From a virus, in the IMG/VR virus record IMGVR_UViG_3300009081_000029, positions 1 through 32,432 of that record: 32,432 bases of DNA, one strand, 5' to 3'. The notes under the pieces were generated by a model. The model was not told the origin of the DNA. It saw nothing but the letters and a program-made list of their open reading frames with translations, and did not search any database. Position 1 is the first letter of the stretch, and each line of letters starts with the position of its first letter. The translations under genes and the position numbers were made by a program. Below are positions 10,696 through 20,745 of this stretch, one piece after another.

Positions 10696-11066
10696 CAAAG
10701 ATAGACTTATCGCAAGCTGCAAAGGCTCAGATAACATGTAAGAGAGGTGATACTTTTCAATTAGAATCTATGCGATTCTGGACCGATGCAAATAAGACTA
10801 TTCCGTTAGACATAACAGGATTTGATTTTGAGATGGACGTAAAGAATAGAGCAGGGGAGTTAATTGTTGCATTCACTAGTGCCGATTTTGTTATTTCAGA
10901 CACAAATAGATTAGATGTCATTAAAAGTTCATCAGGAATGTTAGTTCCTGCAAGTCCGCTCGGCCAGCCATACCAATACGATTTGGAAATGACTGATTTG
11001 AGTGGGGTAGTTAGCACCATCCTGTATGGTGATTTCATAATTGAACAAGACATAACTAATGCCTGA
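10692..11066 (+). CDS. BppU-like N-terminal domain baseplate/fibre adaptor
   Basis: The 124-residue protein shows the pattern KRGDTFQLESMRFW, DITGFDFEMDVKNRAGELIV, then YQYDLEMTDLSGVVSTILYG and DFIIEQDIT. I associate this order of strands with the N-terminal domain of upper baseplate proteins (BppU) and related fibre adaptors. It probably links fibres to the baseplate. Overlaps of four and eight bases with its neighbours place it firmly in the adsorption operon. Confidence 0.6.
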   Translation: MTKIDLSQAAKAQITCKRGDTFQLESMRFWTDANKTIPLDITGFDFEMDVKNRAGELIVAFTSADFVISDTNRLDVIKSSSGMLVPASPLGQPYQYDLEMTDLSGVVSTILYGDFIIEQDITNA

Positions 11067-12462
11067 TTATATTGATATAGTTGTCCAAGAGACCCCTGTT
11101 TATGTTGATGTTATAAAGTCTGGTGGAGTTTATCTCGACATTGTTTATTCAACCGGTGGAGCAGTTGATTCTGTTAACGGTCAAACGGGAACGGTATTAA
11201 TAAATGCAGTACCGGATGGCGGGACAACGGGTCAGGTACTTGCAAAGGCAAGCGATGACGATAACGATACTGAATGGATTAATCAGCAATCCTCTCACCC
11301 TTTTTTATCTTTATTAGGAAATTATAAGGTTGATGCCAATGACACGACACCGCCGGCAGCAAATGGCAGGATTAAGTATTCAAATGCCACTCAAATAAAT
11401 TCTGCTAATCTGTATGTAAGTGCGATTACAGATGAGGGAATGGACGTTGAGGTATTGATATCTTTATTGAATGTCGGAACAATTTTATTAATTCAAGACG
11501 AGAACGATGCTGCAAATTATCAAAAATGGCAGATTAGTTCTACCCCTACATTCCAAAGTATTTCAGATTCTTACACAATTCCGGTTACGTTATTAACATC
11601 TGCCGGGACAGGTACATCTAATTTCCCTAATAACCATGAAGTTTTTTTCAGTGCTTTTCTTTCTGCTGCCAATCCTGTATGGGGTGGCATCACAGGAACA
11701 TTAAGTAGTCAGACGGACTTGCAATCTGCTTTAGATGCTAAACAAAATAGTTTAGGATTCACCGCTGAGAATGAAGCTAACAAGGACACAGATGGTACTT
11801 TAGCTGCTAATAGCGATACAAAATATCCTAGTCAAAAGGCAGCTAAAACTTATATTGATACGGGACTTTCCGGTAAAGAAAATACACTTGGATTTACTCC
11901 CGAGAATGTATCTAATAAGGATATTGATGGCACTTTAGCGGCCAACTCTGATACTAAATATCCTAGTCAGAAAGCGGCTAAAACATACATTGATACTGGT
12001 CTAGCAACTAAACAAAATAGTTTAGGATTCACCGCTGAAAATGAGGCCAACAAAGACACGGACGGAACCCTTGCAGCAAACAGCGACACCAAATATCCTA
12101 GTCAGAAAGCGGTTAAGACTTACGCTGATACTAAGAGGGGATTAACTCCTAGGGTAACATCTACAACGACTGCTACCACACTAACTATTAATTGTGATAC
12201 AACGGATGAGGCGGTATTAACTGCACTAGCTTCGGCCTTAACTATTGCTAATCCAACGGGAACGGCTTTAGATGCTCAGAAATTATTTATCGCAATTAAA
12301 GACAATGGGACGATTAGAACAATAACATTAGGTGCTAATATTATTGATGTATTTGGTCAAGTCCCTGCAAGCACAACTGCTAATAAATGGGTTTACATAG
12401 GATTAAGATATAACACAAGTGCTGCTCAGTGGCACGTCTTAGCAGCTAATACACAGGCGTAA
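11059..12462 (+). CDS. Tail fibre protein with three 45-residue repeats
   Basis: The 467-residue protein starts with a strand-rich attachment region (MPDYIDIVVQETPVYVDVI). A SVNGQTGTVLINAVPDGGTT linker common in fibres follows, then a globular part. Residues 228-362 are three tandem 45-residue units built on LGFTAEN, DGTLAANSDTKYPSQKA and KTYIDTGL. The end (residues ~365-467) is a compact beta domain. Repeats of this sort form the shaft of trimeric fibres. The lectin-like gene follows directly, so this fibre may carry it at the tip. Synonymous codons of the repeats diverge strikingly. Confidence 0.8.
   Translation: MPDYIDIVVQETPVYVDVIKSGGVYLDIVYSTGGAVDSVNGQTGTVLINAVPDGGTTGQVLAKASDDDNDTEWINQQSSHPFLSLLGNYKVDANDTTPPAANGRIKYSNATQINSANLYVSAITDEGMDVEVLISLLNVGTILLIQDENDAANYQKWQISSTPTFQSISDSYTIPVTLLTSAGTGTSNFPNNHEVFFSAFLSAANPVWGGITGTLSSQTDLQSALDAKQNSLGFTAENEANKDTDGTLAANSDTKYPSQKAAKTYIDTGLSGKENTLGFTPENVSNKDIDGTLAANSDTKYPSQKAAKTYIDTGLATKQNSLGFTAENEANKDTDGTLAANSDTKYPSQKAVKTYADTKRGLTPRVTSTTTATTLTINCDTTDEAVLTALASALTIANPTGTALDAQKLFIAIKDNGTIRTITLGANIIDVFGQVPASTTANKWVYIGLRYNTSAAQWHVLAANTQA
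11740..12144 (+). repeat. Three tandem 135-bp repeats in fibre gene
   Basis: Units begin at 11740, 11875 and 12010 (AAA codon each) and are 135 bp long. Units 1 and 3 share 29 identical leading bases, and all share AAATATCCTAGTCA. In between, 14 of 20 codons differ between units 1 and 3 without any amino acid change. Unit 2 differs by a few residues. The units lie in frame and are part of the fibre shaft. Confidence 0.85.
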
Positions 12463-17907: not shown

Positions 17908-19728
17908 TTAAAATGGTTTATCGTTTAGAAAATCATTGTTTTGCTCTAACCCCTGTCCGTAACTCTTTCTGATTGCCTGGTCGAGATAGTCGATGCCGCC
18001 AAATAAAAACCGTCTGCTCGCTCGTTCTAATCTGAACTCCAGGGTCCCGGTCTTGCCGACAATCTTCTGCCTCCTTATTTTTTTGCTTGAATGGGTGCAG
18101 GTTGGGTTCTCAGGGTCTTCACCTCTGTATGGACGGTGGTAAATTATAATATTGTCCATCTTATTATTCCACATCGCTCCCCCAGCTAAATCAAATACGT
18201 CTGGCTCCGGATAATTTAACGCATCCTTTGGCTTGTGCATAGCCTTCGGGTGAGCAACTATTATAAAGCACTGGTCATTGATTAGTGCGAACTTTTTAAA
18301 GTCACTTAGGACCACATCGAGATACTTGTCATCCCGACCTCCGGTTGACTTGTAATCGTTAACCATTTGATTGAATGGGTCAATCACGCAGAAAGTAACT
18401 TTTTCCTTTATGATTAATTCCAAAAACCGCTCCTTAATGTAATCCGGTGTCGGGCTTAAGTCTTTTGGATAAACGAAAAAGAAACTTTTACTAATCCAAT
18501 CATACACCGCTTCAAAGGTTTTTAAGTCATGCCTAGATAACATATCAGGGGTCTGCGCACCACCTAAGTACATTTCAGTCAGGTCAAAGTAAAATTCATG
18601 CGCAGGGGCATCTTCGGGAGCGAACAAGGCCACCTTGTTACCATTGATGACTTGAATCAATAACAGATACTTTAGGTAGGTGGATTTCCCATAGTTACCA
18701 ATTCCGGACAATAATGTAATCTCCCCCTTTTTATATTTGAAATAATAATCCAGGTCATCTATTCCGGTACTCATTGCACCCTGGTACCCGTTCAAATAAA
18801 TATCAAGTGCCTCAGCTTTTACATCTTCACCAAAAATCACATCTTTAGGCCGGACTTCAAGGTCATAAATTGACGGGTCGAATTCAACCTCTTTTTTATC
18901 TATTTTATTTACGAGGGTTTCTCTACTGAACTCAGCCGTCCCAAAACCCACAGAATTGGCTTTATACGCGCTTTTAATCGTTCGAGTGGTTTCACCCTTA
19001 CTGAAGTCGGTAACCCCGCTTAAAAACGACCCTGTGAAGTATTGCTCACATTCATATTCATTAATCCCAAACCTGCAACACGCTGAAGCTAATTTGTAGA
19101 GAAATAAGTTTCGCTCTCCGGTTCTAAAAGCATCGCCTTTATTCGATAGCCATTTTAGGATATTGTTAAAAGTTTCGCTCTGCGATGCGACTACCGATGT
19201 GACTTCTTTTGGCTCGATCAAATCCGCATAGGTATCGCAACTTTCATTGATTATAATCTCAGGGTCATAACTTTCGTAACAAACCCGGCTCGGATTGATT
19301 CCAGACCTGTCGGCTTCCGGAAAGTGCTTTTTCAACGCTTCGAAATGCTGACGGTGCTTTTTTCCGTCTTTCACTTTAACCAACGCCTTGACGCCTTTTC
19401 CGCTCGGACTAGTCCAAATGGCTTTAAAAAAAGTGTATTGGCAGAGGTCTGACTTGAACGATGACACATCTTCGAGGTCATCAAAGTCCAAAACAATGAA
19501 TGCGCTATGTTCAATTAAATCTGAGTCTTGCCTGTTAGCTGCGAACTTGCCGGAGAAACAAACAGAGGGTAAATTCTTTTTCAGTTCGTTGGCCCGTTCT
19601 TTGTCAAGTGCCTGCCTAATCGCTTCAACTTTTACTTTCGACCTACCTTCTTTGATTCGGAGTAGGGCCTTGTCCACCGAAATGTAATTCGGTTCTTTGC
19701 TGAATATGTTTGAGTATATCGTTACCAT
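17908..19728 (-). CDS. BT4734-like primase fused to DnaB-type helicase
   Basis: The 606-residue protein combines priming and unwinding for phage DNA replication. Residues ~50-165 match the BT4734-like/archaeo-eukaryotic primase region (FIVLDFDD at 77-84, SPSGKGVKALVKV at 108-120). Residues ~185-260 resemble a primase C-terminal linker domain. The C-terminal half is a RecA-like helicase with Walker A SGIGNYGKST (341-350) and Walker B CVIDPFNQ, followed by IIVAHPKAMHKPKDA, which fits motif H3. It starts seven bases inside the preceding small gene. Domain calls firm; exact activities inferred from the families. Confidence 0.85.
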   Translation of the reverse strand: MVTIYSNIFSKEPNYISVDKALLRIKEGRSKVKVEAIRQALDKERANELKKNLPSVCFSGKFAANRQDSDLIEHSAFIVLDFDDLEDVSSFKSDLCQYTFFKAIWTSPSGKGVKALVKVKDGKKHRQHFEALKKHFPEADRSGINPSRVCYESYDPEIIINESCDTYADLIEPKEVTSVVASQSETFNNILKWLSNKGDAFRTGERNLFLYKLASACCRFGINEYECEQYFTGSFLSGVTDFSKGETTRTIKSAYKANSVGFGTAEFSRETLVNKIDKKEVEFDPSIYDLEVRPKDVIFGEDVKAEALDIYLNGYQGAMSTGIDDLDYYFKYKKGEITLLSGIGNYGKSTYLKYLLLIQVINGNKVALFAPEDAPAHEFYFDLTEMYLGGAQTPDMLSRHDLKTFEAVYDWISKSFFFVYPKDLSPTPDYIKERFLELIIKEKVTFCVIDPFNQMVNDYKSTGGRDDKYLDVVLSDFKKFALINDQCFIIVAHPKAMHKPKDALNYPEPDVFDLAGGAMWNNKMDNIIIYHRPYRGEDPENPTCTHSSKKIRRQKIVGKTGTLEFRLERASRRFLFGGIDYLDQAIRKSYGQGLEQNNDFLNDKPF

Positions 19729-20012
19729 TTGTCTCTTTCTGTTGGAACGTAAGAGGAACTAATTGCGTTTAAGTCTTTAACTATCTGAGCGAACCCGTTT
19801 TCTTTTTTAAAAGACCTTAAGCCTGTCAGGTATTTGTCCATTAGGAATGTCAACGACTGTAAACTTACATCAGGCATAATCCTTAGTAGGGTCTTGGCCA
19901 TGTAATCAATCGTTTCATCTGAGTATGGATAAACCACTAAAAGATTTAGTTTAAATAATTCTCCCCCGATCAGGTCAGAGGTTGTTGAATTTTGATTTTT
20001 TTGTAATTCCAT
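19722..20012 (-). CDS. Small protein between initiator and helicase, possible helicase loader
   Basis: The 96-residue protein has helices (SDETIDYMAKTLLRIMPDVS, LQSLTFLMDKYLTGLRSF) and no ATPase motif. It overlaps the initiator gene by 38 bases and the helicase gene by seven, so the three are translationally linked. The gene order initiator - small protein - helicase parallels lambda O-P with its host helicase, which suggests a helicase loader or adaptor. That is inference from order only. Confidence 0.6.
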   Translation of the reverse strand: MELQKNQNSTTSDLIGGELFKLNLLVVYPYSDETIDYMAKTLLRIMPDVSLQSLTFLMDKYLTGLRSFKKENGFAQIVKDLNAISSSYVPTERDKW

Positions 20013-20745
20013 TATTTGTCTTGTTTTTAATTTGTTCCATTATTTCATTGAACTTACCATCTAGGACTTGCAGTTCTTTGTCCTTAAACCAATCAGGCAG
20101 GTTTAAACAGAAGTATTTGAAGGCTCCCACCAAATCCTGTTCGCTTGCATTAGGAAAGACCTTTTGCAATTTCTCGAGGATTGACTTTATTTTTTTTCCT
20201 TGCACCCCTCCGAAGCTCCATCCTACATGAAACTCTTTCAGCCAAAAATCAACTGCAAGTTGATATGTGTTATCTTTACTTGGTATATTAGTACTTAGTT
20301 TATTAGTACTTGGTATATTAGTACTTAGTAGTGTACGGTTTACCGTAGACGGTTCAACCGTTAACGGTCCCACCGTTGACGGCTCCACCGTTGACGGTTT
20401 TTCAGTAAGCGGTGGAACATTATTCCGTGGAACATTATTTTGGTTTGAAGGCTCTCCATTGAATGGTTTATCGTAAACAATATGCTCGTAAATGATTTTA
20501 CCACTTTGTCGTTTCTCAACACTAATAATGTACCCACACTCTGTAAGTTCTTTGAAAATATTATTTAACTTGTCCCTGCCTATTTTTAGCTGACTATGTA
20601 AAGTCGTTTTGTAAATAACCCAGTCAGCGGGAAGGCTTAAAAAATATGCTAATAAACCAATCGCCTCAATACTTAAATCCGCTTTGAATATGTCATTCGG
20701 TAAGACGGTATAGTTTGATGCGTGTTTTGATTTATAAATTGCCAT
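19975..20745 (-). CDS. Replication initiator with winged-helix N-domain and repeat-built linker
   Basis: The 256-residue protein has an N-terminal winged helix (SIEAIGLLAYFLSLPADWVI, IGRDKLNNIFKELTECGYI). A linker of pentapeptide repeats follows at residues ~100-160 (PSTVEPSTVGPLTVEPSTV, STNIPSTNKLSTNIP). A C-terminal helical domain completes it (LAVDFWLKEFHVGW, VFPNASEQDLVGAFKYFCL). This plan of DNA-binding domain, repetitive linker and C-terminal partner domain is that of phage replisome organisers such as lambda O. The linker-coding DNA is a run of 15-bp repeats that looks like the origin. It is preceded by its own promoter and RNA leader. Confidence 0.82.
   Translation of the reverse strand: MAIYKSKHASNYTVLPNDIFKADLSIEAIGLLAYFLSLPADWVIYKTTLHSQLKIGRDKLNNIFKELTECGYIISVEKRQSGKIIYEHIVYDKPFNGEPSNQNNVPRNNVPPLTEKPSTVEPSTVGPLTVEPSTVNRTLLSTNIPSTNKLSTNIPSKDNTYQLAVDFWLKEFHVGWSFGGVQGKKIKSILEKLQKVFPNASEQDLVGAFKYFCLNLPDWFKDKELQVLDGKFNEIMEQIKNKTNNGITKKSKFNNL
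20266..20440. repeat. Putative replication origin: three families of 15-bp repeats
   Basis: Inside the initiator gene an unbroken 15-bp periodicity runs for about 175 bp. AT-rich units TGGTATATTAGTACT or TAGTTTATTAGTACT occupy 20281-20325, with a degenerate unit before them. Palindrome-like units of type ACCGTTGACGG plus four bases occupy 20342-20401 (four copies). GTGGAACATTATT recurs at 20412 and 20427. Dyad iterons next to an AT-rich block match lambda-type origins (iterons plus unwinding element) placed in the initiator gene. Repeats are seen; origin function is inferred. Confidence 0.7.

Follow-up and report, generated by a model that had tools for sequence, protein, structure and literature searches.

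On the minus strand of the window, the whole 32,432-bp stretch of viral DNA analysed here, a gene for a predicted replication initiator (P0001) is followed by a small open reading frame (ORF) and by a primase-helicase gene (Table 1). Among PHROG families, P0001 matches those of phage replication initiators and of DnaD-like loaders (phrog_186, E=1.7e-16; phrog_428, E=5.6e-13), and it has a sub-threshold match to Pfam HTH_36 (E=0.0058), a domain matched at E<=0.01 by 16 of the 25 aligned members of the family. The primase-helicase gene is the neighbouring replication gene expected of HTH_36/DnaD-like initiators, and from its sequence we assign P0001 to this kind of phage initiator, represented by 80alpha ORF20 and TP901-1 Rep. 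The AlphaFold2 model consists of a winged helix at residues ~15-95 (pLDDT mostly 83-93 from residue 21 to 90), a disordered linker at residues 104-158 and a helical C-terminal part modelled at low confidence (pLDDT 45-73). In a fold comparison that covered the winged helix only, the best structural neighbours were replication proteins, namely primosomal DnaB (5wtn, Z 9.2), the N-terminal domain of pSK41 Rep (4pql, Z 8.7, rmsd 2.4 over 80 residues; 5kbj, Z 8.1) and RctB (5ube, Z 8.4), at Z scores of 8-9 that are modest beside the ~7 of unrelated winged helices. Judged from gene context, the C-terminal part is a probable recruiter of helicase/primase. The small ORF overlapping the end of the initiator gene is conserved in a relative (L002) that has the same C-terminal part.

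Table 1. Features of the initiator gene, its internal repeat array and the neighbouring genes, with positions in the window
Feature	Position	Strand	Basis or remark
Replication initiator gene, 256 aa (P0001)	19975-20745	-	PHROG 186/428/270/4707, AlphaFold2
N-terminal winged-helix DNA-binding domain (predicted), residues 1-94	20464-20745	-	AlphaFold2, structural matches
Third repeat family, two 15-bp AATAATGTTCC units (GTGGAACATTATT on + strand)	20413-20442	-	Read CAAAATAATGTTCCA / CGGAATAATGTTCCA
Decayed iteron unit CCGCTTACTGAAAAA, in phase	20398-20412	-	
Four iteron units CCGTNNACGGTNNNN (written CCGTNNACGG for all four)	20397-20338	-	
Dyad iteron ACCGTTGACGGT	20387-20398	none	
Dyad iteron ACCGTTGACGGC	20372-20383	none	
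Dyad iteron ACCGTTAACGGT, perfect palindrome	20357-20368	none	
Dyad iteron ACCGTAGACGGT	20342-20353	none	
Junction unit CGTACACTACTAAGT	20337-20323	-	
Conserved junction element CTACTAAGTACTAAT	20317-20331	-	Cross-validated motif, p=0.003 here
Three AT-rich 15-bp ACTAATAnACnAAGT units (ACTAATA), probable unwinding element	20278-20322	-	
C-terminal helical part, probable helicase/primase recruiter	19978-20268	-	Gene context; exchanged between relatives
96-aa ORF overlapping initiator gene end, possible loader/accessory	19722-20012	-	
Primase-helicase, BT4734-like N-terminal domain and DnaB/primase-helicase-like C-terminal part	17908-19728	-	

On the coding (minus) strand of the gene at 19975-20745, the linker consists of eleven consecutive 15-mers in a single phase. 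The first-pass annotation had described three repeat families at this place sharing one unbroken 15-bp phase, and both repeat finders and direct reading confirm this arrangement. The third family, two copies of AATAATGTTCC, is the weakest part of the array and was not seen in the close relatives L002-L006. The junction element CTACTAAGTACTAAT begins 21 bp past the start of the last iteron core, and the AT block of the window has a GC content of 0.28 and a GC3 of 0.00.

Among periods of 7-45 bp, the array is the strongest local periodicity of the window. Against a null in which the peptide was held fixed and codons were redrawn from genome usage (5,000 draws), it has 109 lag-15 identities out of 165 (null mean 80.8, maximum 100) and a best run score of 56 (null maximum 39), and the four iterons contain 20 of 24 possible dyad pairs (null mean 11.7, maximum 19). 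Recent duplication could account for the lag-15 identity, but not for the dyad symmetry. The word ACCGTNNACGGT, at no more than one mismatch, occurs nine times in the window against 0.5 expected, with four of the nine occurrences falling within the array. Fisher tests of single codons give borderline values when confined to the window (CCG, p=0.056; ACG, p=0.039). Elsewhere in the window, a separate 135-bp unit is repeated 2.9 times at 11738-12131, within an ORF at 11059-12462 that probably encodes a tail fibre.

A survey of the linkers of 50 related clusters (85% identity) found 108 CCGN4CGG cores, where codon shuffling gave 8.6 on average and no more than 17. The cores are spaced by 15 bp in 56 cases, 16 bp in six, 30 bp in four and other distances in three, and a clear array is missing in a few of the 50 clusters (L034, L046 and L189). 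Close IMG/VR relatives (L002-L006) have PxTVK repeats followed by QSK/LSTN repeats, a layout best preserved in L002 and L004. Arrays of this kind, of varying clarity, occupy the corresponding position in named phages of Bacteroides, Parabacteroides, Alistipes, Parageobacillus, Geobacillus, Lactobacillus, Sinorhizobium, Agrobacterium, Burkholderia, Vibrio, Pseudoalteromonas, Arthrobacter and Rhodococcus, with variant arrays in Oenococcus and Terrisporobacter phages; a scan queried with the protein of the Parabacteroides phage PDS1 gave no matches. A linker built throughout of repeats with a five-codon phase had been put forward as new to this phage, but most relatives show the same. We also scanned 2.9 million viral contigs blindly for two ACCGTNNACGGT words at any spacing of 13-43 bp, ignoring the protein, and obtained 45 stretches. 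At spacings of 15 or 30 bp, 27 of the 30 loci lie inside initiator homologues recognised by profile, and at other spacings one of 15, several of these loci being near-copies so that the counts are not independent. Of the three profile-negative loci with these spacings, two appear to be initiators too, L063 with a divergent HTH protein and L069 with the same gene truncated by the locus end, and the remaining one, L060, is an unrelated repetitive ORF. For profile scans of contigs a closer alignment (A2) worked, the first profile (A1) having been too diverse.

Origins lying inside initiator genes are already known from lambda, SPP1, 80alpha and pSK41, and the window provides a further such initiator, with its nearest named relatives infecting Bacteroidota. 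The replisome organizer ORF20 of the Staphylococcus phage 80alpha has an N-terminal domain 37% identical to that of P0001, and a rep_origin is annotated at the matching place in the homologous gene. As in the window, ACCGTTAACGGT dyads ~15 bp apart are followed by ACTAAT-rich units, but the dyad is read in another frame, and the partner is a DnaC-like protein that loads the host helicase, in place of which the window phage encodes a primase-helicase of its own. The N-terminal domain of Rep from the Lactococcus phage TP901-1 is likewise homologous, and its gene carries CCAGATGTGG dyads spaced 15 bp apart and then a junction word, CTACTAAATACTAAT, one base different from that of the window; unlike the window, it has the half-site CCA instead of CCG and a different C-terminal part. 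In the Bacillus phage SPP1, with its origin oriL, the reported 80alpha ORF20 homologue G38P binds repeats within gene 38 adjoining an AT-rich unwinding region (PMC6316719). Outside the initiator gene SPP1 possesses another origin, oriR. For 80alpha, ORF20 and ORF21 suffice for autonomous replication, and loss of ORF20 is not complemented in trans (PMC5499656).

Because these genetics place the 80alpha origin inside the homologous gene, and because the dyad array is conserved in relatives, an origin within the initiator gene, as first proposed from the window alone, is well supported. The array is very probably the replication origin of the phage, carried within the gene of its own initiator. 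The dyads could alternatively be operators for the initiator or for a repressor, with the true origin elsewhere, given that dyad-binding winged-helix proteins are often regulators and that MarR-type structures match the domain too. This is unlikely, however, as the array is situated mid-gene beside an AT-rich block and not at a promoter, the 80alpha genetics put the origin in this gene, and a ACCGTNNACGGT word search found no second dyad array in the 32,432-bp window.

The dyads are read in more than one frame. Two or more cores are present in 32 genes, of which 22 have them in frame 0 (PxTVx), six in frame 1 (TVNGx) and four in mixed frames, the last because their core spacing is 16 bp. All three frames occur within single 16-bp arrays in L024 (dyad peptides YRSRD, LPISV and STEVG) and L090 (TVNG, NRQR and PSTG), and the same dyad word is PLTVE in the window and TVNGK in 80alpha. 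The most likely tree of the N-terminal domain entails at least eight frame changes, 2-3 per group are required even when only well supported branches are counted, and the sister group of the window (L023, L024 and L033) reads the dyad in another frame than the window does. The occurrence of the same word in different frames therefore points to selection on the DNA, with the pentapeptides as a by-product, and suggests that the dyad array is conserved as a DNA word recurring at an almost constant interval, which the encoded peptide follows; flexibility is probably all that the linker peptide has to provide. A joint expansion of DNA signal and linker had been suggested. The linker does expand, but a five-codon phase is no rule, and the 16-bp arrays and differing frames indicate instead that the DNA leads.

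According to a second alternative, the repeats are a feature of the protein, a pentapeptide linker (PxTVE, TNxxS) serving flexibility or partner binding, and the DNA repeats reflect recent duplication. The disorder of the linker in the AlphaFold2 model and the commonness of pentapeptide repeats among relatives agree with this, as does the junction element, which is in one frame in 35 of 37 linkers and for which selection on the peptide is possible. It is difficult to reconcile with a dyad word that stays constant while its frame varies between phages and within one gene, with a second commonest spacing (16 bp) that is no multiple of three, and with a dyad symmetry above that of all 5,000 synonymous recodings. 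Moreover, pSK41 Rep still works in trans after an in-frame deletion of its linker (PMC5703833), and we consider this protein-level explanation of the repeats about as unlikely as a set of operators. Initiators of the pSK41 type (RepA_N) resemble that of the window in their winged-helix fold (Z 8.1-8.7), in Rep boxes placed mid-gene, in a linker that is dispensable as peptide and in a modular C-terminal part. They differ in being encoded by plasmids rather than phages and in a DNA-binding domain of another Pfam family, RepA_N, to which P0001 has no match in Pfam. The plasmid pPR9, an HTH_36 hybrid, is described as a pSK41 in which only the DNA-binding domain and origin were replaced, which is similar to the exchange seen among the phages.

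The label lambda-O-type, given to the locus in the first-pass annotation, is apt for the layout, iterons and then AT-rich DNA inside the initiator gene being common to ori-lambda and the window, but not for the family. A true lambda-O replicon, comprising an O-family protein and lambda-style iterons, has this layout and the weak matches of some PHROG 'O-like' profiles to both lambda O and members of the window family in its favour, but is scarcely credible given an hhalign probability of 0.2% between the family profile and lambda O, no match of the window protein to lambda O's own families (phrog_277 and phrog_2365), and lambda iterons of 18 bp at 20, 24 and 23 bp as opposed to 12-bp dyads at 15 bp. 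On these profile comparisons lambda O is an analogue only, not a relative.

Returning to the putative origin, the side of the array facing the C-terminal part carries a second conserved signal. The motif CTA(C/G)TAA(A/G)TACT(A/G)AT, cross-validated by clusters, is present at p<=0.01 in 30 of the 50 linkers and at 0.05 in 37, mostly 21 or 23 bp downstream of the beginning of the last core. In GC-rich phages the AT block is depleted in GC3 relative to the rest of the gene (0.15 vs 0.84 in Burkholderia phage JC1; 0.35 vs 0.75 in the Sinorhizobium phage), which argues for selection at the DNA level. On the coding strand, TnnT occurs 231 times in 44 blocks, where codon shuffles give 168.5 and base shuffles 117, counts that are inflated by within-block repetition and kinship, and other T-T spacings are enriched less. 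Bacillus DnaD binds single-stranded DNA via TnnT pairs (PMC10201434), making a single-strand recognition role plausible, and by analogy we put forward as a hypothesis that the junction element may be recognised as single-stranded DNA. We also considered a DnaA-trio, which fits partially (3'-GATGAT-5'); a frequent C-to-G change at the fourth position breaks the trio and keeps TnnT, and on sequence TnnT is the better fit to the element. Near-identical S. aureus phages (L097 and L158 compared with L007) differ in the number and make-up of their AT-rich 15-bp units, the iterons being constant, so that it seems to be the AT block that grows and shrinks.

Beyond the array, its phase, its dyads and their conservation, all of which are observed, we infer binding, melting and helicase recruitment for the window phage. 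The predicted N-terminal winged helix would bind at intervals of about 15 bp to the four dyad iterons, either as dimers or as paired monomers, and the resulting nucleoprotein complex would strain and melt the adjoining AT-rich units. The CTA(C/G)TAA(A/G)TACT(A/G)AT element could then offer a single-strand recognition sequence, perhaps to the initiator itself, and the C-terminal part would recruit the phage's own primase-helicase, encoded just downstream. With the origin placed between the DNA-binding and recruiting parts, reader and sites would stay together while the recruiter is exchanged. In L003, the N-terminal domain is 81% identical to that of the window and the C-terminal part is unrelated, resembling that of L006 instead. 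Sequence comparison thus indicates that C-terminal parts are exchanged at the putative origin while the N-terminal domain stays. In the genes downstream, two unrelated types of primase-helicase N-terminal part are swapped among L002, L004, L006, L020, L022 and L040, six relatives that have similar initiator domains.

A broader reading, which we hold tentatively and at somewhat less than even probability, is that phages of four bacterial phyla share one origin grammar maintained at the DNA level. Palindromic CCN6GG dyads would recur every 15 (rarely 16) bp, followed ~21-23 bp on by the strand-specific CTA(C/G)TAA(A/G)TACT(A/G)AT element, in which TnnT is conserved and which a DnaD-like initiator would read as single-stranded DNA, making it analogous to the DnaD recognition element of Bacillus oriC. 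The dyads could be in any frame, the protein adapting to the origin, and under the same reading the initiators of these phages would share little beyond the winged helix. Such a cross-phylum grammar and its independence of frame are apparently undescribed; we found no description of the iteron word or of an intragenic-origin rule in the open-licence literature. Intragenic origins have so far been described phage by phage, and the survey suggests a searchable rule, a dyad every 15-16 bp and then a TnnT-rich element, that predicts an origin in phages infecting Bacteroidota, Bacillota, Pseudomonadota and Actinomycetota; for the majority of these phages no origin has been mapped. The arrays would also offer a clear example from nature of a DNA signal taking precedence over protein coding, with one word in two or three frames, and a possible reason for origins lying between domains, namely that sites and reader travel together while the helicase-recruiting part is exchanged.

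Several minor observations concern individual relatives and the record itself. In the close relative L022 (~1775-2443), with 66% identity in the domain, CCATAGCATGG dyads replace CCGN4CGG, and the recognition-helix region reads TQQK where the others have GRDK, a possible natural change of specificity. In three S. aureus phages (L153, L154 and L155), one-base differences in the length of A-runs between iterons shift the frame, and the ORF ends soon past the array so that the C-terminal part is lost; these may be sequencing errors or defective prophages. Cumulative GC skew, earlier proposed as a check on the origin, turns in the window where gene direction turns and is uninformative as an origin mark for that reason. 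The ends of the record split the late operon, with a head gene running to 32356 and a protease starting at 469, which looks like a circularly permuted whole genome with an arbitrary cut point.
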